From: Pseudorhodoplanes sinuspersici
GTDB lineage: Bacteria > Pseudomonadota > Alphaproteobacteria > Rhizobiales > Xanthobacteraceae
Direction of reading: 5' to 3'
NCBI RefSeq assembly: GCF_002119765.1
Contig: NZ_CP021112.1
Span: forward strand, 4,768,501 to 4,832,500
DNA length: 64,000 bases
Each line of letters begins with the position of its first letter. Positions within the stretch are counted from its first letter, which is position 1. Positions 10,257 through 36,662 of this stretch are shown here, one piece after another. Both the position numbers and the translations under genes were made by a program. Under the pieces are notes generated by a model, which made no database searches, was not told the origin of the DNA, and saw nothing but the letters and a program-made list of their open reading frames with translations.

Positions 10257-11623
10257 CGGCTGAGATTCTTATTGTCGATGATGAACCTGATATTTGCGAG
10301 CTCGTTGCCGGCATCCTGCAGGATGAAGGATACACGACGCGCACGGCACGCGACGCCGATGGCGCGCTCAACGCGATCAAGGCGCGGCGGCCGAATCTTG
10401 TCTTTCTGGATATCTGGCTGCAGGGCTCCAAGCTTGACGGGCTGCAATTGCTCGATGCCGCCAAGCAGGAATTTCCCGATCTCCCGGTTGTCATGATTTC
10501 GGGCCACGGTAACATCGAAACCGCCGTAGCGGCGATCAAGCAGGGCGCCTACGATTTCATCGAGAAGCCATTCAAAGCCGACCGGCTCATCCTTGTTGCT
10601 GACCGCGCGCTGGAAAACTCGCGGCTCAAGCGTGAGGTCAAGGAACTGAAGGCGATTTCGCCTCAGCCATCGGCGCTGGTCGGTAAATCGCCGGCGATCA
10701 ATCAGCTCCGGCAAACGATCGAGAAGGTGGCGCCCACCAACAGCCGCATCATGATCATCGGCACCTCCGGTTCCGGCAAGGAATTATGCGCGCGCACGCT
10801 GCATAATCTCTCTGCACGTGCCAATGGGCCTTTCGTGGTCATCAACGCCGCCGCGATCACACCGGAATCGATGGAGATCGAGCTGTTTGGCATCGAGCAG
10901 AGTAACGGCAGCCAAAGCCGCAAAGCCGGCGCGCTCGAGGAGGCGCATGGCGGCACGCTGTTCATCGACGAAATCGCTGACATGCCCAGAGAAACCCAGA
11001 ACAAGATTCTGCGTGTCTTGGTGGATCAGACCTTCCACCGGGTCGGCGGCACCTCCAAAGTCACCGTGGATGTCCGCGTTATCTCTTCGACCGCTCGCAA
11101 TCTCGAAGCGGAGATCGCGGCGGGCAATTTCCGCGAGGATCTCTACCATCGGCTGTCGGTCGTGCCGATCCGCGTGCCGCCGCTGGCCGAACGGCGCGAG
11201 GATATCCCGCTGCTGGTCGATTATTTCATGGAGCAGATTTCGCTCGCCACCGGCTTGCCCAAACGCACGATGGGCGATGACGCGATGGCGGTATTACAAT
11301 CGCATGACTGGCCCGGCAACGTGCGCCAGCTCCGCAACAACGTCGAACGCCTGATGATTCTCGCCGGCGGCGATCCGAACGCGGTGATCAATTCCAGCAT
11401 GCTGCCGCAGGATGTCGGCTCGATGGTACCGTCGATGCCGAACGGCAATGGCGGCGAGCAGTTGATGAGCTTGCCGCTGCGTGAGGCGCGCGAGATGTTC
11501 GAGCGAGAATACCTCGTTGCGCAAATCAGCCGCTTCGGCGGCAACATTTCACGGACCGCCGAATTCGTGGGCATGGAGCGCTCGGCACTGCATCGCAAGC
11601 TGAAGGCGCTGGGGATTGGCTGA
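10253..11623 (+). CDS. ntrX: Response regulator NtrX
   Basis: This is the cognate regulator of NtrY. A receiver domain with phosphoacceptor aspartate in LVFLDIWLQG is followed by an AAA+ domain with Walker A GTSGSGKE and Walker B LFIDEIADM, and a Fis-type helix-turn-helix (ISRTAEFVGMERSALHRKL). The GAFTGA loop that touches sigma-54 is absent: the corresponding stretch reads GIEQSNGSQSRKAGALEEA. Alphaproteobacterial NtrX proteins are known for this, so it probably does not activate sigma-54 promoters in the standard way. Length is 456 residues. Confidence 0.95.
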   Translation: MTAEILIVDDEPDICELVAGILQDEGYTTRTARDADGALNAIKARRPNLVFLDIWLQGSKLDGLQLLDAAKQEFPDLPVVMISGHGNIETAVAAIKQGAYDFIEKPFKADRLILVADRALENSRLKREVKELKAISPQPSALVGKSPAINQLRQTIEKVAPTNSRIMIIGTSGSGKELCARTLHNLSARANGPFVVINAAAITPESMEIELFGIEQSNGSQSRKAGALEEAHGGTLFIDEIADMPRETQNKILRVLVDQTFHRVGGTSKVTVDVRVISSTARNLEAEIAAGNFREDLYHRLSVVPIRVPPLAERREDIPLLVDYFMEQISLATGLPKRTMGDDAMAVLQSHDWPGNVRQLRNNVERLMILAGGDPNAVINSSMLPQDVGSMVPSMPNGNGGEQLMSLPLREAREMFEREYLVAQISRFGGNISRTAEFVGMERSALHRKLKALGIG

Positions 11624-11657
11624 TCGCAGCACGGAAAACAACTCAAGAGAAACGCCC

Positions 11658-12515
11658 GTGTCACGCATCGCCTATGTCAACGGTCGCTACCTGCCGCGGA
11701 GCGAAGCTGCGGTTCATATCGAGGATCGCGGCTATCAGTTCGCCGACGGCGTCTACGAAGTCTGCGAGGTGAGGGGTGGCCACCTCATCGATGAACGCCG
11801 CCACATGGAACGGCTGTTGCGTTCTTTAAGTGAATTGCGAATTCCGCTGCCGATGCCACTGTCGGCGCTCAGCATCGTGCTGCACGAGGTGGTCCGGCGA
11901 AACGGTGTCCGCGACGGTATCGTCTATCTGCAAATCACACGCGGTGTCGCCAAACGAGACCATGCTTTCCCGCCGGCCGGGACGAAACCCGCCTTGGTGG
12001 TCACAGCAAACCGTATCGACCCGGAGAAGACCGAGCGGCTCGCCGCAGACGGCATCGCGGTCATCACACTGCCGGACAATCGCTGGGACCGGGTCGACAT
12101 CAAATCAATCGCACTGCTGCCGAACGTCATGGCGAAACAGCAGGCGCGAGAGCAGGGCGCTCGCGAAGCGTGGTTTGTCGCTGCCGACGGTACGGTGACC
12201 GAAGGCTCGTCCTCGAACGCCTGGATCGTGACGGGGGACAACGAGGTGGTGACCCGGAAGGCCGACCGGACGATCCTGAAGGGCATCACCCGCACGGTCC
12301 TGCTCGAGGTTCTGAAATCGGAGGGCCTGACACTGACGGAGAGGGCCTTCACGGTCGAGGAAGCTCAGGGCGCCCGGGAGGCGTTCATCACCTCGGCGAG
12401 CCAGGCCGTGATGCCGGTGGTCAGGATCGACGGCCGGCCGATCGGTAATGGTGCACCCGGCCTGCTGGCGACCGCCCTGCGCCGCGATTTCCACCGCTTT
12501 GCGGAGGAATCCTGA
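11658..12515 (+). CDS. dat: D-amino-acid aminotransferase (class IV)
   Basis: This fold-type IV pyridoxal-phosphate aminotransferase interconverts D-amino acids and 2-oxo acids. The PLP lysine lies in VDIKSIALLPN, and the class IV block GWFVAADG-like/VTEGSSSNAWIV is present. The GTG at 11658 gives the family N-terminus SRIAYVNGRYLP; a TTG at 11616 inside the end of ntrX would add 14 unlikely residues. It sits between ntrX and hfq, a conserved position in this order. Confidence 0.93.
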   Translation: MSRIAYVNGRYLPRSEAAVHIEDRGYQFADGVYEVCEVRGGHLIDERRHMERLLRSLSELRIPLPMPLSALSIVLHEVVRRNGVRDGIVYLQITRGVAKRDHAFPPAGTKPALVVTANRIDPEKTERLAADGIAVITLPDNRWDRVDIKSIALLPNVMAKQQAREQGAREAWFVAADGTVTEGSSSNAWIVTGDNEVVTRKADRTILKGITRTVLLEVLKSEGLTLTERAFTVEEAQGAREAFITSASQAVMPVVRIDGRPIGNGAPGLLATALRRDFHRFAEES

Positions 12516-25313: not shown

Positions 25314-25403
25314 GGAAGGGTGGCCGAGTGGTTTAAGGCACCGGTCTTGAAAACCGGCGTGCCCGCAAGGGTACCGTGGGTTCGAATCCCACCCCTTCCG
25401 CCA
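25314..25403 (+). tRNA. tRNA-Ser (anticodon UGA)
   Basis: A 90-nt gene with a 7-bp acceptor stem (GGAAGGG with CCCTTCC), discriminator G and an encoded CCA. The anticodon stem CCGGT/ACCGG encloses a loop with TGA, the long variable arm typical of serine tRNAs is present, and the T-arm reads GTGGGTTCGAATCCCAC. Its 3' end is the integration site of the adjoining island and remains intact after integration. Confidence 0.97.
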
Positions 25404-25404
25404 G
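25390..25404 (+). repeat. attL core of the island
   Basis: The 15 bases CACCCCTTCCGCCAG at the 3' end of tRNA-Ser are repeated exactly at 36405-36419. A direct repeat of a tRNA 3' end flanking an integrase-bearing segment is the standard mark of tyrosine-integrase insertion. Immediately inside the island the sequence is very A+T-rich (25405-25450), as expected for attachment-site arms. Confidence 0.85.
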
Positions 25405-25446
25405 AAATTTGTTGCAACTATTTGATATATATAAATATTTATAATT

Positions 25447-26010
25447 TCAATCTGAACCGGCCCCAGGCTCGGCCCTAGGCTCCCAATCTCTAAATTCGTG
25501 AGAGAAATGTGCCGGAAAATCGGGGTCGCTAACGGCGGGATTTAGCCGGAGGTTCTTGTACGTCGAGAACACAATGAACACGCTCGCATGACGTGTCATC
25601 GTGAGTAGGTACTGACCGCGGGGCCCACCCGCTCCCTTGGTTATTCGGAGATTGTTGAGCCAATCTTTGATCTGCTGGTCTTCAAAAGTGAGCGGGTCTA
25701 TTGAGTGCGCGAACTTGTTTCTAACCTTGCGGATTATGTGAAGGTCATGGTGCGCGTCAAACGGCATCAACCCAACGGCTAAGGCCAAATCAATCTTCGA
25801 CGCAAAAGTCTCGCAGAACCCCCCTGTTCCAAAAACTCGCTTCTGCACGACTGGATCCAAAATTAATCTGTGAGCCAATGCGACAGTGAGTAGTTCTTCT
25901 AGAATCGCGCCTCCAATGATGGCAGCGCCCCGATCACTTTGCGATGTGACCTCTGAAAGTATCTCCTCCATAGTGAACTTCGTTTTTATGGCGGACAGCG
26001 GGTCGCTCAT
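25447..26010 (-). CDS. MltR-like domain protein (island cargo)
   Basis: This 187-residue protein resembles the MltR (mannitol operon repressor) domain family: SQSDRGAAIIGGAILEELL, a central FGTGGFCETFASKIDLALAVGL, and LHIIRKVRNKFAHS are the family hallmarks. The family name comes from one enterobacterial repressor, and most members have no known role. It lies next to attL, apart from the head genes, at the position where satellites usually carry accessory or anti-phage genes. A role in immunity is conjecture. Its A+T content is higher than that of the surrounding core genes. Confidence 0.72.
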   Translation of the reverse strand: MSDPLSAIKTKFTMEEILSEVTSQSDRGAAIIGGAILEELLTVALAHRLILDPVVQKRVFGTGGFCETFASKIDLALAVGLMPFDAHHDLHIIRKVRNKFAHSIDPLTFEDQQIKDWLNNLRITKGAGGPRGQYLLTMTRHASVFIVFSTYKNLRLNPAVSDPDFPAHFSHEFRDWEPRAEPGAGSD

Positions 26011-26102
26011 TTGTCCTCCGAAAAAGCTTCAAGACTGCGATTTAGTACTTGCGAGGCGAGAATGGTGTCATATGCTTCCACACTCAATAGTTGAGGGGAA
26101 AC

Positions 26103-26252
26103 ATGGCCAAGAAACCGTCCAAAGGTGAAACCACCAGCAACAAAGTCGCGACAATCGCCTCAAAGGGACTCAAAACTCCTAGCAAGCTAACAAACAAAGA
26201 AATTAAGACGATTGCCGCCAGTGCGCTAACGCAGGCTCCCAACAAGAAATAA
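26103..26252 (+). CDS. Small lysine-rich protein, 49 residues
   Basis: A short gene starting at ATG 26103 with GAGGGG seven bases upstream and ending at TAA 26250-26252. The product begins MAKKPSKGETTSNKVATIAS and ends TIAASALTQAPNKK. It is lysine-, threonine- and serine-rich with two similar helical segments (VATIASKGLK and IKTIAASALT), resembling small proteins widespread in proteobacterial mobile regions whose function is unknown. It is the only rightward gene in the island and is divergent from the MltR-like gene. Confidence 0.55.
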   Translation: MAKKPSKGETTSNKVATIASKGLKTPSKLTNKEIKTIAASALTQAPNKK

Positions 26253-26323
26253 AAAGAGCCAGCCACCCTGCGGATGACTGGTCCCACATGCGACGGCTCC
26301 TGAGAGAACGACCGACGCAATCT

Positions 26324-27388
26324 CTATTCTTTGTCAGCCCAATCGAGCAGCGCCAACGCCGGCTTCGGATCAACGCCGGCTTCCTTGGCCATGGCCAGGC
26401 CTTGAATCAGCGTTGCGAATGCACGAGCCGATCCGCCAGCATCGAACGCCTGCAGCGGCGTCATGAGATCAATCGTGACGGTACCGCCGAGTTTGTCCGA
26501 TGCTTCCTCGGCGAGTAGCGCGCCGATCGGCTGCAGTGTCCATTGAGCAAGGTGGCGTTGACCTTCCCGAATAAGCGGACCGGTCGTCGCACTGGAAAAC
26601 ATCGCAGGCAGCACACCGAACGCCATGGCCACGGTGTCGCGTGCCGCGTCGAGCGTTTCCTTGGTCATCGACTTTTCGAGGTCCGGCGACAGGCTCGCGG
26701 GCTTCCAATCCGATACCGGAGCGGGTCCGCCCGCGGCCGACACCTGTACGCTCTCGCGCAGCAGCACCCTGCCCCGTTGACCACGGAATGAACGGCTTAA
26801 TTTCGAATTGTCCGTATCCGGGGATTCCGGCATCGGCACGACTTGCGAACCGATCGGCGCATTCTCGAACACCTCAGCGAGCGCGGACTCGACCGCGTTT
26901 AACATGCCGGCCGTCAGATTGGCGCGCTTCAATGGCGCTGTTCCGTAATAAGGCGCGGCGGGATCCGCACCGGTCCGAAGGTGCAGCACCTCGCCAGCAA
27001 GCGCCGTTTCGGTCGTGCCGCCGCCGGCTTCCGGAATGGAAACGCGATAGGCGGTCGGCCTCCCATAGCGGGTCCGCAAATCCCAATCGCTGCACGGCAC
27101 CAGCATGTCGTCGCGGATCAGGAAGACCGACTCCCCGCGAAGCGCCAGCGACCGGCCGAGCAGTGCCAGCGCCCGCCGATCGAGCATGTCGGTGCCGTCG
27201 ACATCGGCCAGCGTGAAGCCATTTTCCCATAGCGAGACGCACGATTGTGCGGTCGCTGTCAGTTCGGCGATACCGCGCCGGCCGGATATGTAAGCTTCGC
27301 GCGCCTGGATAATTTCAGCCGTGAAGCCGCTGCCGGCACTACGCTTTTCGATTTTTTGAAAACGCTTTAGCCACTTAAACTCAAACAT
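26324..27388 (-). CDS. Phage portal protein, HK97 family
   Basis: This 354-residue protein forms the dodecameric ring through which DNA enters the head. Family features are visible: the N-terminal helix region, GESVFLIRDD, the block GEVLHLRTGADPAAPYYGTAPLKRA, and the C-terminal half with VAMAFGVLPAMFSSATTGPLIREGQRHLAQWTLQPIG. It overlaps the connector gene by eight bases and is the last of the head genes, an unusual position since portal normally follows terminase in HK97-type phages. It is shorter than many portals (about 400 residues). Confidence 0.9.
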   Translation of the reverse strand: MFEFKWLKRFQKIEKRSAGSGFTAEIIQAREAYISGRRGIAELTATAQSCVSLWENGFTLADVDGTDMLDRRALALLGRSLALRGESVFLIRDDMLVPCSDWDLRTRYGRPTAYRVSIPEAGGGTTETALAGEVLHLRTGADPAAPYYGTAPLKRANLTAGMLNAVESALAEVFENAPIGSQVVPMPESPDTDNSKLSRSFRGQRGRVLLRESVQVSAAGGPAPVSDWKPASLSPDLEKSMTKETLDAARDTVAMAFGVLPAMFSSATTGPLIREGQRHLAQWTLQPIGALLAEEASDKLGGTVTIDLMTPLQAFDAGGSARAFATLIQGLAMAKEAGVDPKPALALLDWADKE

Positions 27389-27917
27389 GACGATAAGCCC
27401 TCAACAGGTCGGCAGCGCCCGAATTGGCGATTGCACCGGCCAACCAGGATTCGGAGCGCCGCGAGGCAATGGAAATTGATCCGGCCGTGACAGATTCGGA
27501 CGTGGCGCCGGGCTTGCCGGGTTTCGCGGCCATGTATTCGGCCAGCCGGCGATAGGCTTCGGCTACCGTAGCAGGCACGTCAGCAGCACCGACCGTTGCT
27601 GTGAATTGGTAAGGGCCGCTGCAAGGCAAGCAGTAGCCGCCGAGCGGCGATGCCGTGAGCGTGACGGTCTCCCATTCCCCGGCCCGCGACCACACTTGGA
27701 CGGTGCTAATAGTTGCCGGCGTGAGCGGCGGCACCCACTCCCCCGGCCCTTCCACGACCCAGGTCACTGGCCGCTCCGCCCACCGATGCGCGCACCAGGA
27801 TTCAAGCCGGTCCCAAACGATCGCCGACGCAAGTGCCTCGGCGGCAGCGGAAAGGCCCGAAGGTGCGTCCGGGTACTCCGCAGGCTCGCTTTCGATTTGC
27901 TGAATTGTTGTGGCCAT
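27381..27917 (-). CDS. Head-tail connector protein (gp6-like)
   Basis: A 178-residue protein resembling the gp6-like head-tail connectors of HK97-type phages: an N-terminal helical half (SAAAEALASAIVWDRLESWCAHRW), a beta-rich middle, and a C-terminal helix (VPATVAEAYRRLAEYMA) followed by an arginine-rich end. The ATG at 27917 lies one base beyond the protease stop and the 3' end overlaps the portal start. It is likely the adaptor that docks a helper tail. Confidence 0.72.
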   Translation of the reverse strand: MATTIQQIESEPAEYPDAPSGLSAAAEALASAIVWDRLESWCAHRWAERPVTWVVEGPGEWVPPLTPATISTVQVWSRAGEWETVTLTASPLGGYCLPCSGPYQFTATVGAADVPATVAEAYRRLAEYMAAKPGKPGATSESVTAGSISIASRRSESWLAGAIANSGAADLLRAYRHV

Positions 27918-27918
27918 T

Positions 27919-28587
27919 TCACAGCCTCCATCGGTGCAATGGGTGCGCAGGCACGACCAGACCGGATCCGGTCTGTTCCCAATTGCGCTTGTCCGCCTCG
28001 ATTGGGCTGCCAAAGTCATCAAAAGAGACATTTGCATCATCAGAGGAGACATTCGCCTCTTCGTAAGCAGGCCGGGTCACGATCGAAAGTTCGAACAAGA
28101 TCGCTGCAAAAATCGTCCGGATAAGTGCGCGGCCTATCCGTGGATCTTCTTCCTCGATCTTTTCAGCCTGGTCCGACGGCACCGCGGACGGCGGCGGAAT
28201 ACGAAAGCCGGGTGACAATCCGACAGACAGCCCGGCGGAAATCATTTTCAGAATGTCCGAGCCGTAAGACGTGTCCGCGATCTCTGGCAAAACAGTAGCG
28301 TCGAACGTCAACACTTCGCTGGTATCATTGAATACCAGCGTGCCGGTTTTCTTGCTGGCAAGCGGACGATCGAACGAATGGCCGACCAGCAGCGCGATAT
28401 CTTGCTCGACGCTATCAAGCGAATGCGAGAACGCACCCGGCATGAACTGCTCTTTCTTCGGGCGTCCGCGTTTTCCGCCGTCTGAAAGCACAGCCTTCTT
28501 TCGGTATGGAAATCGGCCTCGAATTACGCGCCGCCCCTTGGCAGCGCGCAACTCAATTTCGCCGATCAAATTGTCGGCGGTCTCCAT
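27919..28587 (-). CDS. HK97-family prohead protease
   Basis: This 222-residue serine protease matures the prohead by cleaving the scaffold part of the capsid protein. The N-terminal IRGRFPYRKKAVLSD and FMPGAFSHSL, the catalytic histidine in LLVGHSFDRPLASK and the region LFELSIVTRPAYEEANV with the catalytic serine are all present. The start codon shares one base with the capsid stop (TGATG). The C-terminal 40 residues repeat an NVSSDDANVSFDD-type sequence. In this island the protease follows rather than precedes the capsid gene. Confidence 0.88.
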   Translation of the reverse strand: METADNLIGEIELRAAKGRRVIRGRFPYRKKAVLSDGGKRGRPKKEQFMPGAFSHSLDSVEQDIALLVGHSFDRPLASKKTGTLVFNDTSEVLTFDATVLPEIADTSYGSDILKMISAGLSVGLSPGFRIPPPSAVPSDQAEKIEEEDPRIGRALIRTIFAAILFELSIVTRPAYEEANVSSDDANVSFDDFGSPIEADKRNWEQTGSGLVVPAHPLHRWRL

Positions 28588-29840
28588 CACTGAATCCCGG
28601 TCAGGATTTCGAGCTGTACAGCTCGGCTTACTGTGACGTCGGCTGTCGCCAGTGCAGTAAGGCGGAGACCGCCCGACGCCGCGTCGCTGTAAACGTCGCG
28701 GATCAAATCGATCGCTCCCCATGTGCCAACAAAGATCGGAGCCACGCCGCCTACACTCGTCGTCAGCAACGCCTTGGTTGCGAGCGGCGAACCAGCCGCG
28801 GCAGCGAGTGCGTTCGACGACATGACGATGTTTCCGGCCGGAATGTTCTTGACCAGTCGGTCCCATTCGGAAACAGCGGTGCCCTCGATCAAGGTGTCAT
28901 CCATGTCGGACCACACCTCCGGACGAATAAGCAGTTTCACCGCAGCAGGACCATTGGCTGCATTGGCCGTAAGGAAGCGCGTCACAGCGGCACGGAATGC
29001 GGACCACGATGCGGCCGCGGTCACAGCCGTACTGGTGATGCCATATGAGCCGACAAGCACGCCGCTCGGCTGACCGTTTGCGCCGGTGCCGAGGAAAACC
29101 GCCTTGTCCAGCGCAACGGAAATCGCGCCGTTCATGTCACGGCGCACCGCCTGCTCCAGACCATCGCCCGACTGCTTCAAGGTCTTGCGGGTGATTTTCA
29201 TCTGGATCCCGAGCGTCGAATTCGGAGCGAGCATGCGCTCGCTGGTCGAATAAACGGTCGGCCCCGGTACGTTGGCAGTCTCGCCATCGGCCCATCCGGC
29301 AGTCACGCTGCCCGATGCAATCGGGTATTCGTTGCTGCCTTGGCCAATGTTGACCATGCTTGCGCCCATACGCACCGCAGCGGAGTCTGCGAAAATTCGA
29401 TCGATAATCGGTGCGGTAGTCACCGGCGACGGCGTGCCCGAAGCGATGGTTTCACCAGCGCGCTTTTCGAGCGCCTGCCACGGCACCGGAACTCCGCGAT
29501 AGCCACCCTGTGAGCGAAGTTCCTCGACGATCTCCGCAGTGGCACCGTCGATCTTGCGGCCTTCGTCCAGGTGCAAGGCAACCTGCCGAAGCTCGAATTT
29601 GCCGATCAGTTCGGCGTATTCCCGGTCTGATCGCGTTTCCAGGTCGGCGCCTGCCTCGCGACGCTCCGTATCTTCGACGATAAGCGAAGCGCGATAGCGC
29701 GTCTCATTGCCGCGATATTCGGTGTCGAGCGTTTCCATCGAACGGGTTTCGTCTTCGGTTGGCTGCGACTTGCCAACTAGGCCCGCGAGCGCCTGCCGAA
29801 TTTCCGACTGACGACGCGAGATTTTTACAGACTCAAGCAT
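28587..29840 (-). CDS. Major capsid protein, HK97 family
   Basis: This 417-residue protein has the two-part HK97 layout: a helical, charged N-terminal delta region (about 1-110) that the protease would remove, followed by the mature fold, with RSQGGYRGVPVPWQALEKR, the segment LDKAVFLGTGANGQPSGVL, and VWSDMDDTLIEGTAVSEWD. The ATG at 29840 has AAGGAG upstream and overlaps the HNH 3' end; a longer frame to 29966 is only the HNH shadow. Confidence 0.9.
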   Translation of the reverse strand: MLESVKISRRQSEIRQALAGLVGKSQPTEDETRSMETLDTEYRGNETRYRASLIVEDTERREAGADLETRSDREYAELIGKFELRQVALHLDEGRKIDGATAEIVEELRSQGGYRGVPVPWQALEKRAGETIASGTPSPVTTAPIIDRIFADSAAVRMGASMVNIGQGSNEYPIASGSVTAGWADGETANVPGPTVYSTSERMLAPNSTLGIQMKITRKTLKQSGDGLEQAVRRDMNGAISVALDKAVFLGTGANGQPSGVLVGSYGITSTAVTAAASWSAFRAAVTRFLTANAANGPAAVKLLIRPEVWSDMDDTLIEGTAVSEWDRLVKNIPAGNIVMSSNALAAAAGSPLATKALLTTSVGGVAPIFVGTWGAIDLIRDVYSDAASGGLRLTALATADVTVSRAVQLEILTGIQ

Positions 29841-30166
29841 AGTGACTCCTTGGGTTGAGGTTTCGCCATCGTGGCGAGCAAATCGCGCCACGCGGCGCGA
29901 GCGGGTGAGACTTCGTTTCCGAAGCCGCATTCGATTTTCGTTTTCGCGGAATGACACGGCACGCAAAGCGTCTGCAGATTGGTCAATTCGAACGCGAGTT
30001 CGGGATCGGTGCGCACAGGCTTGATGTGATCGACTTCAAGGCGACCGACCGCGCTGCACTTCACACATTTGAATCCGTCGCGGCGCTTTGCAGCCAGGCG
30101 CAAGGCTGGCCAGCGCTTGTCACGAATGACTGCAGCGGAGTGTCGAAAATACTCGTTCAAAGCCAT
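29825..30166 (-). CDS. HNH endonuclease of phage packaging type
   Basis: A 113-residue protein with the HNH fold: CVKC zinc knuckle, EVDHIKPVRTDPELAF, NLQTLCVPCHSAKTK. Small HNH proteins next to the large terminase are part of the cos-cleavage machinery in HK97-type phages. It overlaps the terminase 3' end by ten bases and the capsid 5' end by sixteen, so the packaging and capsid genes form one tightly coupled transcript. Confidence 0.9.
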   Translation of the reverse strand: MALNEYFRHSAAVIRDKRWPALRLAAKRRDGFKCVKCSAVGRLEVDHIKPVRTDPELAFELTNLQTLCVPCHSAKTKIECGFGNEVSPARAAWRDLLATMAKPQPKESLCLSL

Positions 30167-31665
30167 ACCGCCTCGCGTGTTTTCTTCTGACCGCGACCGG
30201 AAATCCGAGCGCCTTCGGCAACAGCGAGCACCGTCGCCGATGCCGCATCAATGCGACCGGTCGAACGGGCCTTTGCCATTTTCATATTGTTGGCGGGATC
30301 GCGGAGCGTCACCGCGTCGGCAAATGCGCTGCGTAACAGTAGCGACGGTTTCGACTTCACCTGACCATCAAAACACGCACGTTTAAAGCGGTCGCAATCC
30401 TCGTTGCCGTCCTTAAATCCGAAACCGCGCCATACGATCGGAACGCGAATGCCCGCGCGATCGATAGCCTCCCCCAATTCGGACTGCTTGTAGCGATCCA
30501 TAATCAGGCCGGCGATCGGCTCCCCTTGCACATGCCGCATGACTTCGCCAAGCCACGGTGCAACCGGCACCGTCGCATCGCCGAGTACCGACAGTTCGCC
30601 GCGGCGCTGCATTTCGTTGTAACGATCGCCAACACCGTCAGCCGCGCCGCGGTCGGTGAGGTTCGGGCGTGACGGGAATGTTCCAAGGCATTCGAGCCGT
30701 CCGGTCGCCGGCCAGTAAAAAGCCGCGGCCGTCATGCTGGCGCTGCCGCCGAGATCGATGCCGATGACCACGCTGCCCTCACGGGGAGGCAGATCGGCAG
30801 TCTCACAATTCAGCCACTCGTCGACCGTCAGCAATACGTCTCGCGTTTCAGCGCTGACTCGTTCATTGCGGTTGTAGAGTCGGAATGTCGTGAGGCTCGA
30901 TCCGCCTCGTGCAATTGCTCGACGCGCCTGCGCTTGCAGCCATTCGACCGACGATCCGATACCGTGCATCGCGCCAGGATTGGCGAGTAGCAGCGACTCC
31001 AGATCGTCGACGGGCAGACCCGGCGGCGGCCGATGCTCCTGCCGATAGACGCCCTCTTGTTCCTCATCAAGCCACTTGCTGAAAGGGTGCGCGTCATCAG
31101 GGGCGGACGTCGAAATAATCAACGCGCGACCGTCGCGTTTTCCAAGGCCGGACAGCAGAGCGTGTTCGAGCGCATCCCCGCTGTCACGCTCCCAATGTCC
31201 GCGCTCGTCCAAGATCGCCAGTGTCGGCGCACCGCCCAAGGATGACTTGGCGTCGGACGACAGACAGCGAATGAGATGGCCGCCACCATCGCCAGCGAAT
31301 TCAATCTCCAAGCGTGGCGCCCGGCGGAACGTGATTTGCTTTTGGATTTTCTCAGGGAGGAACTGCGCAAATCCCTGCACGAAATTGAAACAGATACGGG
31401 CTTGGTCGCGCGTGCGCGCAGCAATCGGAATTTCGCGTTTCGGCTGTGCGTCCCATGCGCCAAGCAGCGCACCGAGTCCTACTCCGGCCGAAAGCGCCGT
31501 CTTGGCATTACCCCGTCCGATCGATAGGCACGCAACACTGACGTCCTTTGCCAGCGCGCCCATCACAAATTGCTTTTGGAAAGGCGCCAGCCGCATCGGC
31601 TTTCCAGCCATGGGGCCTTCTGGAATCTTGAGGGTCTGAAGGAATTTGACGGCTTTTTCGGTCAT
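30157..31665 (-). CDS. Phage terminase large subunit
   Basis: This 502-residue motor pumps DNA into the prohead. An ATPase domain carries a Walker A variant (SIGRGNAKTAL) and Walker B (PTLAILDERGHW); the nuclease domain has VVIGIDLGGSASMTAAAFYW, LIMDRYKQSELGEAI and a late aspartate (TGRIDAASA). The ATG at 31665 gives MTEKAVKFLQTLKIPEG; an ATG at 31734 would add 23 residues (GFRAGNLYGGVGFRCLALRSR) and is possible. No gene recognisable as a small terminase lies upstream. Confidence 0.9.
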   Translation of the reverse strand: MTEKAVKFLQTLKIPEGPMAGKPMRLAPFQKQFVMGALAKDVSVACLSIGRGNAKTALSAGVGLGALLGAWDAQPKREIPIAARTRDQARICFNFVQGFAQFLPEKIQKQITFRRAPRLEIEFAGDGGGHLIRCLSSDAKSSLGGAPTLAILDERGHWERDSGDALEHALLSGLGKRDGRALIISTSAPDDAHPFSKWLDEEQEGVYRQEHRPPPGLPVDDLESLLLANPGAMHGIGSSVEWLQAQARRAIARGGSSLTTFRLYNRNERVSAETRDVLLTVDEWLNCETADLPPREGSVVIGIDLGGSASMTAAAFYWPATGRLECLGTFPSRPNLTDRGAADGVGDRYNEMQRRGELSVLGDATVPVAPWLGEVMRHVQGEPIAGLIMDRYKQSELGEAIDRAGIRVPIVWRGFGFKDGNEDCDRFKRACFDGQVKSKPSLLLRSAFADAVTLRDPANNMKMAKARSTGRIDAASATVLAVAEGARISGRGQKKTREAVWL

Positions 31666-31804
31666 GCGGGACCGGAGCGCGAGACAGCGAAACCCCACCC
31701 CTCCGTACAGGTTCCCCGCCCGAAAGCCGGGCATTGGGACCGCAATCGCGCAGCGCGCGCGGCTGATGCGCAGAATGCAAACGGACGAAGGGAGATAGCG
31801 GTCA

Positions 31805-32164
31805 TCATGTGCGCGCTTGCAGGACGAAGCATGCGCCAGCGGGATCACGCTCTACATTGATGACCGTGTACGTGCTGCCGTTGATTGTGATGGTGTTGCC
31901 AGCAACAGGCGTAACGCTCAGTGACGAGGCAACGACATAGACCTTGCGATCATTGCGTAGAATGCTCGTGCCATCGACCTGGCTTGCCTCGTAGTCATCC
32001 ACCCAAGCAGCGCAGATGTGCGGCGTGTCGATGACAGTCGGTTCAAGCGCCGTGCCACCAATGGTCTGCACAGTAAGAACAGCAGCGCCGGGAATGCCTG
32101 CTGCATACAGAGCATCGACGAGTTCGGGTGCGAGGTCGAATACTGACAAGGGTTGCCGGCCCAA
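31805..32164 (-). CDS. Putative head-closure or tail-attachment protein
   Basis: A 119-residue protein with an N-terminal helix (FDLAPELVDALYAAG) and a beta-rich C-terminal half ending VAGNTITINGSTYTVINVERDPAG. That ending is typical of small neck proteins of siphophages that close the portal channel and bind the tail. Assignment is by pattern and location only. The start is uncertain: TTG at 32164 or TTG at 32149; no clear ribosome-binding site is seen, and a terminator lies directly upstream. Confidence 0.55.
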   Translation of the reverse strand: MGRQPLSVFDLAPELVDALYAAGIPGAAVLTVQTIGGTALEPTVIDTPHICAAWVDDYEASQVDGTSILRNDRKVYVVASSLSVTPVAGNTITINGSTYTVINVERDPAGACFVLQART

Positions 32165-32202
32165 TAAAAAACCCGCGCCGGCGGGTGAGCCAGACGCGGG
32201 TT
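32165..32202 (-). terminator. Rho-independent terminator before the head module
   Basis: On the minus strand AACCCGCG (32195-32202) pairs with CGCGGGTT (32170-32177) and is followed by a run of T residues. It separates the 82-residue gene from the head-closure gene, so the structural genes beyond it need readthrough, antitermination or their own promoter. Confidence 0.7.
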
Positions 32203-32238
32203 GATGTTTATGTAACCAGGTAAGATAGAGCGTAAAGC

Positions 32239-32487
32239 TTAATATGTGGTTTCTGATCGAGAAGGTCCGGAAACTGAGAGCAAGCGCTCGCCCGCGAGCA
32301 AGCGTCGGATCTGATCAGCAGGGACACCAAGCTCGAATAGCTTTTCCCTCAAAGATACTACGTCCAGTTTGCCCGCGAAGAACGCATCGATCGCAGAGGT
32401 GAAACGATCGAGATCATCTTCATGATCGAAGATGACGAAATCAGAGCCGTAGCTCTCTCGAATAATTTCGCCAAGTCTGGATGCCAT
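32239..32487 (-). CDS. Island hypothetical protein, 82 residues
   Basis: A small acidic protein (GEIIRESYGSDFVIFDHEDD) ending in a helical region with LFELGVPADQIRRLLAGERL, which could be a short nucleic-acid or protein-binding helix pair. I recognise no family. The ATG at 32487 is preceded by AGAGTG; a GTG at 32493 is an alternative. It sits between the iteron-like array and a terminator. Its place before terminase is where a small terminase or a packaging/capsid-size factor might be expected, but nothing in the sequence supports that directly. Confidence 0.5.
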   Translation of the reverse strand: MASRLGEIIRESYGSDFVIFDHEDDLDRFTSAIDAFFAGKLDVVSLREKLFELGVPADQIRRLLAGERLLSVSGPSRSETTY

Positions 32488-32630
32488 AAACACACTCTAT
32501 ATGATTATCTATTGACATGCTCGATGCATCTGGCCAGCGCACGACAATGATACGTTAGCTCTACCATAAGTCAAAATAAGCCTTTGATTTTATTAGCAAT
32601 TGTTGATTGTACGATATTAAATTCAAGGGT

Positions 32631-32727
32631 GTCACACCGTCACGTCATCGTCACACCGCGTCACATGTGACACGCCCTTTGCCGTCACGTCACGTCACAC
32701 AACCCTATAGGGGTGTGACGGTGTGAC
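32631..32727. repeat. Iteron-like GTCAC array, candidate replication origin
   Basis: Within 97 bases the pentamer GTCAC occurs seven times on the plus strand (32631, 32639, 32650, 32660, 32684, 32689, 32694), and its reverse complement GTGAC three times (32667, 32715, 32723). An A+T-rich stretch lies beside it at 32505-32625. The array abuts the 3' end of the RepA-like ATPase gene. Short iterons plus an A+T-rich region next to a replication ATPase are typical of origins in phage satellites and plasmids. Confidence 0.6.
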
Positions 32728-32731
32728 AGGG

Positions 32732-34132
32732 TCAACCTGGTAATTGACCAATAAGAGGTGAAGGTCCGAGCGTCGGCATTCCAATCCTCACCATGCCATC
32801 GCTTTCCGCAATTCGCTGTGATCTTGCCAGCGCATCCCGCAGTCGCCTAAACGGCTCTCGTGGATTCTTCGCCTCGATATCGAGTACCCCTATTCGGAAT
32901 AATTCGTCGCGCCACCGATCGACCGCAACCGCACCAGCCTGACCATGTTCTTTGATGGCTGTTTTCAATGCGTCCAGTGCGAGCACCTGCCGGTCACTGA
33001 GGCGTGACGTAGCTTTCGGCGCTGCAACAGCCGCCATCGACAGGATGAACGCCGTAACCGCGTCGCCGTCCTCATCGACACCCAGATTCACAACTTCGCC
33101 AGCAAAGCTCGTAAGCGCTCCCTCGGGCTGATCGTTCGCCTTGATGACTGTCGCCGTTTTCACAGCGTCGCCGGTGATGTGGATTTGCAGGTCAACGTCA
33201 CCCTGCCGGGCATTGCTGCCACGCTCGCCCCGCGTCTCGTCCTTGCCGCTGTGACCGACGCCGGCAATGTGGACGTCCAGCAATTCATGGATCCGACGAA
33301 GATTCGCCGCTACAATGTTCTGATCGCGCGCCTTGTCCTCGTCACCGCCACCGGCCGCGATACCTTTTGACCATGTGTCAATCACGATCACGCCGACCGG
33401 CATGCCGAACCGCGCCTCGGCCGCGCGGACAGTCTGCACGATGATATCGACGCAACTCGGATTGAGCATGTCAACGATTTGCCCTGTCACCGCCATCGGC
33501 AAGCCAGACATGCCGTCTCGCTTCGCGTAGGCCGACAGTCGGCGTCGCACCTGATCGGCACGTTCAAAGGCGAAATAGACAACGCCAGCGCGCTCCTTGT
33601 GCTTGAAACCGCGCCAGTCCTTTCCCGCTGCCGTGTGGACCGCAATATCAGTCAGCATCGCGGATTTAAGCGAACCAGGCGCGCCGAACACGCTGGAGTT
33701 TTCGCCTTTCGCAACGACACCCTTCACCAGCCATTTCTTTGGCGTCGGGGTGCTGCATTCATCGAAGAACGTCAGCGGAAGCGCTTGTTCGGCCGATTGC
33801 GTTGCCGGAACGGGAAAAGGGATGACGGACAACGGAATTTCCTTTCTCGAATATTTGAACTGCCATGCATCTTGTTCGGACACGCTGATCCAATGATGCG
33901 GCCAAGCGCAATCAATCTCGTACAGCGAGGGGAAGTGATGGCCGTACTTCGATCGCCACTCCGCTTTTTTGGCGGCGTATTGAGCGAAAGTTACGTCACT
34001 TTCGCGATCTGGCTGCGCGTCGAACCAAGCCTCAATCGCCTCTGCCTCAAGCCTGATCGCCTGGCGAATTTTGTGGCGTTCTCTCTTCTGCTGATGCGCT
34101 TCGTAATCGATAATCTCTGCAAGTGCAGTCAT
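32732..34132 (-). CDS. RepA-like AAA ATPase (replication protein)
   Basis: This 466-residue protein contains a RecA-fold ATPase of the RepA/AAA_25 type: Walker A GAPGSLKSAML (near residue 150), Walker B GVIVIDTW, and the block VHIAGVGHSGKDETRGERGSNARQGDVDLQI. The N-terminal 60 residues are charged and helical. Proteins of this kind act as helicases in plasmids and satellites. With the adjacent iteron-like array this suggests autonomous replication after excision. No separate primase is seen. Confidence 0.8.
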   Translation of the reverse strand: MTALAEIIDYEAHQQKRERHKIRQAIRLEAEAIEAWFDAQPDRESDVTFAQYAAKKAEWRSKYGHHFPSLYEIDCAWPHHWISVSEQDAWQFKYSRKEIPLSVIPFPVPATQSAEQALPLTFFDECSTPTPKKWLVKGVVAKGENSSVFGAPGSLKSAMLTDIAVHTAAGKDWRGFKHKERAGVVYFAFERADQVRRRLSAYAKRDGMSGLPMAVTGQIVDMLNPSCVDIIVQTVRAAEARFGMPVGVIVIDTWSKGIAAGGGDEDKARDQNIVAANLRRIHELLDVHIAGVGHSGKDETRGERGSNARQGDVDLQIHITGDAVKTATVIKANDQPEGALTSFAGEVVNLGVDEDGDAVTAFILSMAAVAAPKATSRLSDRQVLALDALKTAIKEHGQAGAVAVDRWRDELFRIGVLDIEAKNPREPFRRLRDALARSQRIAESDGMVRIGMPTLGPSPLIGQLPG

Positions 34133-34224
34133 TCATGGACTCCAATGTCGATGGAGCCCGACGAGATTTTTCTTGAAAGATTCAGCGAGTGTGCTATTCC
34201 GATGGCACCACCCAATCGAAATAG

Positions 34225-34258
34225 AACCGCTCGGCTGAGTTCACCTCGCCGGGCGGTT
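34225..34258. terminator. Hairpin between two island genes (possible attenuator or terminator)
   Basis: AACCGCTCGGC (34225-34235) pairs with GCCGGGCGGTT (34248-34258) with one mismatch, and T residues follow on the plus strand. It lies between the 52-residue gene and the RepA-like gene. On the minus strand, the direction of the operon, the following sequence is only partly T-rich, so any effect there would be modest. Confidence 0.4.
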
Positions 34259-34263
34259 TTTCG

Positions 34264-34422
34264 TTACTCGTCGCGTTTGCTTGTCGGCTGGATTTGAGCC
34301 AACGCCTCGTCGATTTCGTGCAGTCGATGGCGCAACGTCGCGTTGGCGTCGTCCGCTTTTTTGCGAGCAACCTTTGCGTCGTTAAGAATGGCCATAAGGT
34401 TGTCCAAATCGGCTTTCGTCAT
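34264..34422 (-). CDS. Small coiled-coil-like protein, 52 residues
   Basis: Starts at ATG 34422 with GGAGG upstream and reads MTKADLDNLMAILNDAKVAR, then a charged helix rich in alanine, aspartate and lysine ending in QPTSKRDE. Its regular heptad-like leucines suggest a coiled coil. The start overlaps the preceding gene stop (ATGA). No family recognised; probably a small regulator or accessory factor of the island. Confidence 0.55.
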   Translation of the reverse strand: MTKADLDNLMAILNDAKVARKKADDANATLRHRLHEIDEALAQIQPTSKRDE

Positions 34423-34706
34423 GCCGCCACCTCCTGCCCGCCCATGGCCAGAAATTTCGAATAAGCCGCCACCGCCAATTGCTTGGGAATGTCCCCATCG
34501 AGAAAATGGACCAGCCGTCTGCCATCGCCGAATGTGTCGATCTTCGGTGCCGAGACGACCAAATCGCCCTTCGCCTTTCGGATCAGCAAACACTCGTCAA
34601 TTCCCACGAGTCCGATTTCGCAGTCGAAGTGACAAAGAAGCTTATCGCCGTTTTGCCATTCCCTGACCTTGCGGGATCGGATGCCGACAACCCGAATACT
34701 GGTCAT
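34419..34706 (-). CDS. Island hypothetical protein, 95 residues
   Basis: Starts at ATG 34706 with AAGGAG upstream and overlaps the AlpA-like gene stop by four bases. The sequence has a beta-rich middle (DKLLCHFDCEIGLVGIDECLLIRK) and a helical end (KQLAVAAYSKFLAMGGQ). I do not recognise it. It is the second gene of a short leftward operon AlpA-like, this gene, and the 52-residue gene. Confidence 0.6.
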   Translation of the reverse strand: MTSIRVVGIRSRKVREWQNGDKLLCHFDCEIGLVGIDECLLIRKAKGDLVVSAPKIDTFGDGRRLVHFLDGDIPKQLAVAAYSKFLAMGGQEVAA

Positions 34707-34879
34707 GCTGCGACTCCTTCGCGAGCACGTACCCATTCCTCATTTGCCTGGGCGCTGATGCGAACACAGCGTCCAACTTTGAACGCCCGCGGTGCTTCAC
34801 CACGTGCCTGCAATGCGTAAAAGAACGAACGCGAGAGGCCGTGGGCTTTGCACCATTCCTCAATGCTTTGGGACTTCAT
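34703..34879 (-). CDS. AlpA-like excisionase/regulator, 58 residues
   Basis: A short gene starting at ATG 34879 with GGAGG upstream and ending at TGA 34703-34705. The product is a winged helix-turn-helix protein of the AlpA/excisionase type: MKSQSIEEWCKAHGLSRSFF, then a wing with PRAFKVGRCVRIS and a C-terminal helix with EEWVRARE. AlpA is the standard regulator of Gram-negative PICIs and controls excision and island gene expression. Its position just after the integrase and upstream of the replication module fits that role. A terminator hairpin lies directly upstream. Confidence 0.82.
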   Translation of the reverse strand: MKSQSIEEWCKAHGLSRSFFYALQARGEAPRAFKVGRCVRISAQANEEWVRAREGVAA

Positions 34880-34894
34880 GTCGTAACCTCCAAC

Positions 34895-34932
34895 AAAAAA
34901 CCCCGCTGCGACCAGTCAAGGTCGAAGCAGGG
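34895..34932 (-). terminator. Rho-independent terminator upstream of the AlpA-like gene
   Basis: A 13-position stem with one mismatch and one G-T pair (34901-34932) is followed on the minus strand by six T residues (34895-34900). It would end transcription from the integrase before the AlpA operon. A second, weaker hairpin with a T-run lies at about 34942-34970. Confidence 0.7.
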
Positions 34933-35058
34933 TGCGGGTACAAAAAAAGGCGCCGCCGCGGATCACCGCAGAAGCACCTCAAACAAAAACTCCGTTTCCG
35001 GAATCCTTCAGATTTCCCTTTGTAGCATGTTCGCTGTCCCCGCGCAAGCTGACGTGCG

Positions 35059-36237
35059 CTAGTGGACGTTAACGGAATCTTTCTCGCAGTAATTTGTCCA
35101 AGCGGTCATTAACTCGCGTCGCTTTTCCAATGCGTCGCCGCGTCGATAAGCGGCTTCGACTTCATTCTTGTTCGTGTGAGCCAATGCTGCTTCCGCAATC
35201 TCGCGTGGAAAATTTGTCGCCTCACCGCACCAATCGCGAAAACTCGAACGGAATCCATGCGCAGTGATGGCGCACTTCATGCGCTTTAACACGGCCGTCA
35301 ACGTCATATCGGACATTGGTGTCTTGCCGTTGCGACCAGGAAAGACGAATTCGCTCGTTTTAGCCTCTTGAAGCTTCTGAACAATTGCCACCGCACGACG
35401 CGATAATGGCACCCGATGCACAATGCCCGCTTTCATTCTCTCAGGCGGCACCGTCCAAATCGCTTTGTCAAAATCGAATTCGTCCCAACGCGCTCCGCGC
35501 ACCTCGCCCGAACGGGCGGCGGTCAGGATCGCGAATTCCAGCGCCAGCGCCGCCACGCCTTCCCTGCTCCGAAGGTCGGCCATGAATGTCGGTATGTCAG
35601 CGAACGGCAGCGCCGCGTGATGACCGCGGGTCAGTTTCTGGCGCTTGGGTAGCAGGTGGTCTAGGTGACCACGCCAGCGAGCCGGATTTTCGCCGGAGCG
35701 CAGCCCTTTCGCCTTTGCGGCGTCAAGGATTGCCTCGATCCGGCCGCGCAGACGAACGGCGGTTTCGTTTTTGCTGGTCCAGATCGGCTTGAGCACGCCG
35801 AGCACATCGTCCGTGTCGATGGCGTCGATCGGCCTGCCCCGCATCGGCTTGGCGTATTCCCGCAGCGTCATCCGCCACTGATCCAGATGCTTCGCATTCC
35901 GCAGGCTCGGCGCCACCTTGTGTTCGATATGGTCGTCGGCGAATTCACCAAATGTCACCGGTGAAGCTACCCGCCGAACCGATCGCGGATCCTTGCCATC
36001 GCGCAGCGCGGCCCGCATTGCGGCGGCAATTTCGCGGGCCTTAGCCAGGGTCACGTCTCGCGCGCCGCCGAGGCCGATTTCGCTCTGCTTCGTTCCGCGC
36101 GCAAACATGAACACCCACCGGCGCCGACCATAGCTGGAAATCGAAAGATACAGCCCGCCCCCGTCAGCGTGGCGGCCGGGCTTAGTTTGGGTCCGAACGG
36201 CGTTCGGGCTTAATCTATGAAGAGTTCGAGTCCCCAC
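35059..36237 (-). CDS. int: Tyrosine integrase (P4-type)
   Basis: This 392-residue site-specific recombinase carries an N-terminal arm-binding DUF4102-type domain (RHADGGGLYLSIS), a core-binding domain, and a catalytic domain with the catalytic arginine in TAARSGEVRGARW, the HXXR box HGFRSSF, a second histidine in LAHTNKN and the nucleophilic tyrosine in EAAYRRGD. It presumably integrates into tRNA-Ser. The start is a GTG at 36237; its coding sequence begins inside a tRNA-3'-end-like stretch. Its 3' end faces the AlpA operon. Confidence 0.94.
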   Translation of the reverse strand: MGTRTLHRLSPNAVRTQTKPGRHADGGGLYLSISSYGRRRWVFMFARGTKQSEIGLGGARDVTLAKAREIAAAMRAALRDGKDPRSVRRVASPVTFGEFADDHIEHKVAPSLRNAKHLDQWRMTLREYAKPMRGRPIDAIDTDDVLGVLKPIWTSKNETAVRLRGRIEAILDAAKAKGLRSGENPARWRGHLDHLLPKRQKLTRGHHAALPFADIPTFMADLRSREGVAALALEFAILTAARSGEVRGARWDEFDFDKAIWTVPPERMKAGIVHRVPLSRRAVAIVQKLQEAKTSEFVFPGRNGKTPMSDMTLTAVLKRMKCAITAHGFRSSFRDWCGEATNFPREIAEAALAHTNKNEVEAAYRRGDALEKRRELMTAWTNYCEKDSVNVH

Positions 36238-36246
36238 CGTCCGCCT
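36224..36246 (+). repeat. tRNA-3'-end-like remnant overlapping the integrase start
   Basis: The sequence GTTCGAG-TCCCCACCGT-CCGCCT resembles the T-loop and acceptor end of a serine tRNA (compare GTTCGAATCCCACCCCTTCCGCCA at 25382-25403), but no upstream tRNA half is present. It overlaps the integrase start codon. It may be the remains of an older attachment site or tRNA fragment. Confidence 0.45.
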
Positions 36247-36662
36247 AACTCCCGGCCCTAGTTACGGCCCTAGTTTGTAGCGTGGATACGGGCGCTCACG
36301 CAAGCACGGTGGTGGACGGAGCGATGTATTATTATCTGTTGAATCAATCAGATAGGTTTCATTGATGGACGCCGGAAGACATCAAAAGACACCGGTTATG
36401 ATGACACCCCTTCCGCCAGCCCCGCCGATTTGTGCGATACTCAATCGGCAGCGTAGACAGCGTCGTATGCCCACTCTTGCCTGCTCTCAACCTTCGAGGG
36501 TGAGACCGCTTTCAGAGAGAGCGCCAGGCAGCTTTCGCTCGTCTACCGCCCACAGGAATAGGCCGCAGGGACCACACATCGGCGCTTGACTCACGTCAAC
36601 GCCCCCTACCCGGTCCCGCGATATGCAGACATTATAAGTCACTCTGCGAAGAAATCGCCGCC
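36238..36662. other. Gene-free stretch spanning the right island end
   Basis: This 425-base stretch contains the integrase upstream region, the right attachment core and then chromosomal sequence up to the ferric-reductase-like gene. It has inverted G+C-rich patches around 36251-36275 but no gene I can support. Open frames here cross the attachment site and have no recognisable product. Confidence 0.5.
36405..36419 (+). repeat. attR core of the island
   Basis: CACCCCTTCCGCCAG, an exact copy of the 15 bases at the 3' end of tRNA-Ser (25390-25404). The sequence to the right shows no tRNA, as expected for the displaced copy. Confidence 0.85.

Follow-up and report, generated by a model that had tools for sequence, protein, structure and literature searches.

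A putative capsid-forming phage satellite in tRNA-Ser of Pseudorhodoplanes sinuspersici and its relatives among Alphaproteobacteria

What kind of element encodes the parts needed to build and fill a phage head, with no recognizable genes for a tail or for lysis? This question is raised by an 11-kb island in a tRNA-Ser gene of the alphaproteobacterium Pseudorhodoplanes sinuspersici, which we analyzed within a 64,000-nucleotide stretch of its genome (contig NZ_CP021112.1, positions 4,768,501 to 4,832,500; hereafter the window, whose numbering is used for all coordinates below). An intact capsid-forming phage satellite is, in our view, very probably what this island represents, i.e., an element that provides its own head and packaging machinery and borrows its tail from a helper phage.

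The island (25390 to 36419) lies between a tRNA-Ser(TGA) gene (25314 to 25403, plus strand), the only tRNA gene that ARAGORN detected in the window, and a 15-bp repeat of the 3' end of that tRNA. The tRNA is the integration target, and its 3' end forms the left attachment site (attL), whose core CACCCCTTCCGCCAG (25390 to 25404, plus strand) is copied exactly in the attR core (36405 to 36419, plus strand). These are the only two occurrences of CACCCCTTCCGCCAG in the window, and when the next 20 kb were shuffled 300 times, some 15-mer of the tRNA region recurred in a single shuffle. All of the phage-type genes are located between the two copies on the minus strand, which also carries every other open reading frame (ORF) described below; the G+C content of the island is 58.1%, versus 60.3% outside it. 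The phage-type reading frames are all intact once the starts of four of them are moved inward by alignment with relatives (terminase large subunit [TerL], 31734; major capsid protein, 29840; protease, 28590; adaptor, 27917). Thus, the repeat, the gene complement and the intact frames proposed in a preliminary description of this DNA were borne out by ARAGORN, by the exact repeat copies and by profile searches. In congeners, the left flank (dac-rlpA-tRNA-Ser) is kept without the island; their right flank is not syntenic, and no exact empty attB was found among them.

The head and packaging genes form a compact cassette. TerL (525 aa; 30157 to 31734) matches phrog_9 (5e-58) and the Pfam ATPase and nuclease domains, and its sole PDB profile match is 6z6d (3e-51). 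It is followed by an HNH endonuclease (113 aa; 29825 to 30166; phrog_144, 1e-19; Pfam HNH), the predicted packaging nuclease; an HK97-type major capsid protein (417 aa; 28587 to 29840; Pfam Phage_capsid, 7e-13), whose alignment with relatives is invariant from M43 of the mechanically called ORF; a prohead maturation protease of the S78 family (223 aa; 27919 to 28590; Pfam Peptidase_S78, 3e-16); an Ad1-like head-tail adaptor (178 aa; 27381 to 27917); and a portal protein (354 aa; 26324 to 27388; Pfam Phage_portal, 4e-14). The adaptor, previously termed a connector, had no match in profile searches; its assignment comes from its conserved slot between protease and portal and from an AlphaFold model (predicted local distance difference test [pLDDT] score, 84) whose best PDB matches are phage neck/adaptor proteins (Foldseek probability, 0.99; E value, only 0.018). 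Upstream of TerL, and absent from the preliminary list, is an FII-like head closure protein, Hc1 (119 aa; 31805 to 32164; phrog_161, 2.5e-12; Pfam Phage_attach), presumed to be the tail-docking part. The mobility and replication genes comprise a tyrosine integrase (392 aa; 35059 to 36237; phrog_1, 1.3e-49; Pfam Arm-DNA-bind_3, Phage_int_M and Phage_integrase), an AlpA-type excisionase/regulator (58 aa; 34703 to 34879) with a weak match to phrog_66 (7.6e-5) that strengthens in relatives (5.5e-13; homologs in our loci L032 to L034), and a RepA-like AAA_25 ATPase/helicase (466 aa; 32732 to 34132; Pfam AAA_25, 1.5e-27; phrog_906 DNA polymerase/primase, 4e-24). The last is predicted to be the element's own replication gene, and primase and helicase families occur among the replication genes of relatives.

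Searches with TerL across 297 genomes of the same taxonomic family recovered seven matches with at least 61% identity, followed by a drop to 32% or less; besides the window's own locus, the seven comprise six from a further five genomes, a patchy distribution covering 6 of the 297. A capsid search of 397 genomes of the same order gave matches of 52 to 70% identity and, beyond these, 32% or less. The regions around the close TerL and capsid matches proved to be islands sharing one core order. Wider scans confirmed 197 capsid relatives in the genome collection and recovered 501 capsid and 398 TerL relatives in viral contigs. The best 80 genome hits are alphaproteobacterial in 78 cases, the other two being a metagenome-assembled genome named Oceanospirillaceae and an entry without a class; by order, they include 50 Rhodobacterales, 20 Hyphomicrobiales, 3 Hyphomonadales and 3 Sphingomonadales, with others unplaced. 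Among 94 loci compared in detail, every one with a long enough contig has the order TerL-HNH-capsid-protease-(adaptor)-portal, and in this layout genes are missing only at cut contigs or where matches fall below threshold. After removal of duplicates, 53 distinct islands flanked by the 3' end of a tRNA gene and a repeat of that end have a mean length of 10,437 bp (standard deviation, 556; range, 8,539 to 11,731) and use 17 tRNA types, with the integrase at either end of the island. Since three assemblies carry two family islands each (L033 and L034 in G050, L073 and L079 in PBIL01, and L135 and L144 in Mesorhizobium tamadayense), co-residence seems to be tolerated. Only one replicon of the plasmid collection, the 1.58-Mb NZ_CP039965 of Pseudorhodobacter turbinis, has a family capsid, at about 396 kb; its record contains two matching places. 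One island, L063 (G570:C2), is decaying, with its TerL, capsid and portal genes each split.

Profile searches against PHROGs and Pfam found no tail, lysis or terminase small subunit (TerS) gene in the window island. When 130 noncore island ORFs of the family were compared with the same libraries, the 25 commonest families were connectors, AlpA or helix-turn-helix (HTH) regulators, primases and helicases. The ORFs after the portal, the usual place of tail genes, were scanned apart, and regulators alone appeared among the best 25 of 36 weak families. The inspected loci without a detected tRNA repeat had no tape-measure-like gene run after the portal within the element; some of them still have repeats of similar spacing, and two viral contigs of >20 kb with head genes stop just past an integrase-sized ORF downstream of the portal.

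Complete circles of this kind also exist, as judged from overlapping contig ends. An exact search for end overlaps of up to 400 bp gave none, and a tolerant search gave L129, L232 and L382. In L129, a contig of 10,436 bp from cultured Gemmobacter serpentinus HB-1, the two ends share 96 identical bases, which gives a 10,340-bp unit; its record title gives a coverage of 941, with no baseline for comparison, and a second full-length copy was not found in the HB-1 assembly. L232, a metagenome contig with a 121-base end overlap containing one mismatch (unit, 10,640 bp), carries the whole head cassette and a weakly primase-like 1,033-aa ORF, with no integrase match and no tRNA. A tail module would not fit into circular forms of 10.34 and 10.64 kb. 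The reported lack of tail and lysis genes therefore holds for the window, for the 53 tRNA-bounded islands (8.5 to 11.7 kb) and for the complete circles, and close relatives yielded no such genes that would betray a recent deletion. For most of the family, we infer excision from the att sites. The gene content of L232, with its primase-like ORF and no integrase match, suggests a nonintegrating satellite. TerL-to-portal DNA that is about 89 to 96% identical to that of L232 is present in L239, L241, L242, L243, L244 and L246; L243 itself was rejected as a permuted or circular form, its ends agreeing at only 86%. L382 (IMGVR_UViG_3300009472_001028) is a circular metagenome contig (unit, 9,339 bp) with a family TerL, the DNA site discussed below and an adaptor-like ORF, no family capsid, and a 1,236-aa protein matching phrog_342 ("internal virion protein with endolysin domain"); this combination reflects either chimeric assembly or another type of satellite.

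A TerL tree of 51 rows places the islands on one side of a branch of 2.65 substitutions with a support of 100. Outside this clade are the prophages of the same taxonomic family, HK97, the strain's own prophage and EcCIEDL933 of Escherichia coli O157:H7 EDL933, which we take, by its name and gene content, to be NZ_CP008957 1680329-1694760 (L064:25330-39761); EcCIEDL933 and the strain's own prophage form long branches whose exact placement is unsure. In the phage collection, the best identities are 28% for TerL and 29% for the capsid (the latter in one record), and hhalign comparison of island profiles with EcCIEDL933 gave probabilities of 1.6% for the capsid (no homology) and 16% for the portal (marginal). 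Because the TerL clade is long-stemmed and the sampled tailed relatives are at most about 32% identical, we regard the islands as an old satellite lineage rather than a fresh deletion from a prophage. Among the genomes sampled, the head genes do not fall inside any prophage lineage: they show a separate TerL clade and an identity gap (TerL, at least 61%, and capsid, at least 52%, versus at most 32%).

The family further shares a short DNA site, represented in the window by GGTCCCAATG (31732 to 31741, minus strand), which overlaps the TerL start codon. Counts of k-mers upstream of TerL recovered the 9-mer GGTCCCAAT in 39 of 52 islands, with 7 being the highest count of any 9-mer from shuffles. 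It is present exactly in 173 of 229 loci (140 distinct sequences), upstream of the TerL domain and always in one orientation; many of the 56 loci without the exact 9-mer are truncated. Since the 9-mer reads V-P-M/I in the TerL frame, the site overlaps the TerL start, and the ATG of the window's TerL lies inside it. The wobble bases of its GTC and CCA codons are fixed by the definition of an exact match; however, CCA makes up only 9.7% of the proline codons in the family's TerLs and the neighboring proline codon varies, so that the protein alone does not account for an exact 9-mer shared by three quarters of all loci. A 17-base pattern on this site was searched in 2.9 million IMG/VR viral contigs, and 98 of 100 newly fetched loci had a family TerL on the same strand; the pattern matches without TerL (L338 and L406) are probably due to chance. 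None of 24 prophage TerL loci contains the 9-mer, and neither do the first 9 kb of HK97, the stretch of phiLM21 covered, the strain's own prophage or EcCIEDL933. Moreover, 43 contigs have an end on the upstream side of the TerL domain and no more than 1.5 kb from it; in three of them (L124, L262 and L277) the contig start coincides exactly with the site, and the L232 contig begins five bases before it; by our arithmetic, uniform breaks would place about 0.06 contig starts within two bases of the site. From this conservation and position, TGGTCCCAAT at the TerL start is probably a cohesive-end (cos) or packaging site. Cooperation of an HNH protein with terminase at the HK97 cos has been published, as cited in PMC10448857. 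An inverted partner, GG[GA]ACC, downstream of the site was seen in only 31 of the 140 sequences, and we make no claim for it.

The conserved 9-mer might instead serve as a signal for TerL translation start or regulation. This alternative, which would replace the packaging step alone, agrees with its overlap with the start, its V-P-M/I coding and the ATG, CTG or TTG just upstream in many sequences. We regard it as rather unlikely, given that the 9-mer does not resemble a ribosome-binding site, keeps its wobble positions unchanged among deeply diverged members, falls at the ends of three contigs and close to that of another, and sits next to the terminase, as the cos of cos phages does.

A second alternative, directed at what is new rather than at the satellite reading, is that the island is an ordinary, already cataloged member of the capsid-forming phage-inducible chromosomal islands (cf-PICIs), with nothing distinctive. 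The integrase and att sites, AlpA-type regulator, replication gene, capsid, protease, portal, connectors, HNH and TerL reproduce the published cf-PICI gene list minus TerS (PMC10690885, PMC10448857), and the family could be among the approximately 900 reported cf-PICI capsids (PMC13230959) or their three capsid radiations (PMC11389934). Yet, its gene order differs from that of EcCIEDL933, its capsid has no homology to that prototype detectable by hhalign, its TerL belongs to another clade, and in the literature searched a single paper mentions capsid-forming satellites together with Alphaproteobacteria, its subject being Streptomyces satellites; we therefore find this alternative doubtful. Head-gene homology to the prototype lineage is a cf-PICI trait that we did not find. 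As the published cf-PICIs are polyphyletic, with three radiations (PMC11389934), these differences exclude kinship with EcCIEDL933 but not membership in the functional class. The earlier label "cf-PICI-like" stands as a working analogy in gene content and in the lack of tail and lysis genes; the island is not closely related to the enterobacterial prototype, and no TerS was recognized in it.

That the island might be a prophage remnant, decaying after the loss of tail, lysis and control genes, is in our view highly improbable. Its head genes are of the ordinary HK97 type and L063 shows that relatives can decay; however, the genes in the window are intact, no tailed relative was found, and independent deletions would not yield the same tail-less architecture in about 90 loci with 17 tRNA targets and 5% length variation, nor complete tail-less circles. 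An intact temperate phage would carry the tail and lysis modules that the island lacks. A gene transfer agent (GTA), or another domesticated locus that makes heads and fills them with host DNA, can be set aside almost entirely. Although GTAs are common in Alphaproteobacteria and a cluster with a GTA-like tail protein (phrog_4271) lies at about 3.9 Mb in this genome, GTAs are vertically inherited, encode tails and have no integrase, whereas the island has an integrase, att repeats, AlpA, a replication gene, a patchy distribution and a sequence-specific site, and the separate GTA-like locus offers a best TerL match to the island profile of only E = 0.1. That cluster (about 3.91 to 3.93 Mb; L300 and L301) encodes a 1,295-aa phrog_4271 tail protein and an HK97 capsid.

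With the island taken as a satellite, a helper phage would trigger AlpA- and integrase-dependent excision, and the RepA-like ATPase would replicate the resulting circle. The capsid protein and protease would then build a small head, into which the portal, TerL and HNH could load one unit-length genome cut at the cos-like site at the TerL start. The adaptor and Hc1 would cap the head and accept the siphovirus-type tail of the helper, which would lyse the cell and release the particles. The constant length of about 10.4 kb may be set by a small capsid of the T=3 or T=4 class; a genome of the 11-kb class suits such heads, after the example of satellite P4.

Several observations count against this account. 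Particles, helper induction and tail capture are deduced, as sequence by itself displays no particles, induction or transfer. The site doubles as TerL coding sequence, which leaves its cos role inferential, and three contig starts are a small number. No helper was identified, and the single tailed prophage found in the genome has the other connector type (see below). The AlphaFold model of the capsid was unusable (pLDDT, 43) and was left unused. The remaining 11 of the 36 post-portal families have one member each, with E values above about 0.001. Finally, TerS, which cf-PICIs are described as encoding (PMC10690885), was sought in the window and the family by profiles, small-ORF conservation and position, with nothing convincing recovered: two weak phrog_57 matches downstream of the portal are probably HTH cross-matches, and an 84-aa ORF at 32239 to 32493, with no PHROG or Pfam match, is not recognizable as TerS. 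The subunit may be too divergent to see or may be supplied by the helper.

Two mutually exclusive adaptor types divide the family. One, "conn" (the window type), is encoded between protease and portal, and the other, phrog_442, lies upstream of TerL; the two never occur in one locus. The recognized head closure protein is, in nearly all cases, phrog_161 with "conn" and phrog_25 with phrog_442, and the neck protein phrog_169 is present in a few loci. On a concatenated TerL, capsid and portal tree of 181 rows, adaptor type and Hc1 type need three changes each. We hypothesize that the adaptor type probably decides which helper tails can be used. The phage proteins nearest to the window Hc1 are 31 to 45% identical and include those of Rhizobium phage RHph_X3_2 and Sinorhizobium phage phiLM21. 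The siphovirus prophage of the same genome (5.01 to 5.03 Mb; L298 and L299) encodes a tape measure, tail fibre, HK97 capsid, HNH, phrog_442 and phrog_25; as its connectors are of the other type, it is no obvious helper. Taking these data together, we lean, by a modest degree, toward a separate, class-wide alphaproteobacterial radiation of capsid-forming satellites, in which one head and packaging line with an invariant cos site extends over at least four orders with no recognizable TerS, keeps to about 10.4 kb as held by the capsid, changes helpers by swapping adaptor and head closure genes, and includes some circle-only members.

The other ORFs of the island are small. Between AlpA and the ATPase are a conserved 95-aa ORF with no assigned function (34419 to 34706; homologs 36 to 39% identical in L033 to L035) and a 52-aa coiled-coil-like ORF (34264 to 34422) whose start shares bases with the stop of the ORF before it and which has no family match. 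Beyond the portal, a 78-aa ORF without a family match (26084 to 26320) is a possible membrane protein and could be cargo. Beside attL, a 187-aa DUF4145-like ORF (25447 to 26010; phrog_22031, 7e-14; Pfam DUF4145, 1e-4, just under the cutoff), likewise new relative to the preliminary list, had no close counterpart detected among the relatives examined and is a possible cargo gene.

If our reading is correct, capsid-forming satellites belong routinely to the alphaproteobacterial mobile gene pool, including that of marine Rhodobacterales and rhizobia, and about 500 IMG/VR contigs that are at present classed only as viruses would be tail-less satellites. No experimental satellite-helper system for marine Rhodobacterales or rhizobia came up in the literature searched. 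The circular copy in cultured G. serpentinus HB-1 would offer an immediate experimental entry, the 10-bp site provides an inexpensive DNA probe for family members as well as a candidate packaging site that can be tested directly, and the two adaptor sets translate into a testable rule for the helper tails usable by each satellite.

Among known systems, HK97 and alphaproteobacterial siphoviruses such as phiLM21 share the TerL, HNH, S78 protease and Hc1 families with the island, whose Hc1 is 37% identical to that of phiLM21 over a short stretch; they differ in their tail modules, in TerLs at most 28 to 32% identical and in the absence of the DNA site from the stretches checked. The Streptomyces satellites MulchRoom and MiniFlayer (PMC10690885) resemble the island in having their own head and packaging genes and in helper dependence (inferred for the island), but they are actinobacterial, have direct terminal repeats and virulent helpers, lack an obvious replicase and show no reported PICI homology. 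The cf-PISPs (TG54), episomal satellite-plasmids of Vibrio related to cf-PICIs, are small tail-less circles with capsid, portal, protease, connector, HNH and terminases and invite comparison with L129 and L232; unlike the family, they measure 15.8 kb, are confined to Vibrio, fall in the gammaproteobacterial cf-PICI capsid cluster and carry ParA/RepA plasmid genes (PMC13230959). EcCIEDL933 is similar in content, having an integrase, an AlpA-like regulator, a replication gene, capsid, protease, portal, connectors, HNH and TerL and no tail or lysis genes. However, it is about 14.4 kb long with a P27-type TerS, versus 10.4 kb and no recognized TerS in the family; its order is capsid-protease-portal-closure-connector-HNH-TerS-TerL, versus closure-TerL-HNH-capsid-protease-adaptor-portal in the island; and it has a TerL of another clade and a capsid without homology detectable by sequence. 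The family differs from EcCIEDL933 in its lineage, in the order of its genes, in size class and in the DNA site; its predicted mode of working is one already known from the cf-PICIs (PMC10690885, PMC11389934) and the related cf-PISPs (PMC13230959).

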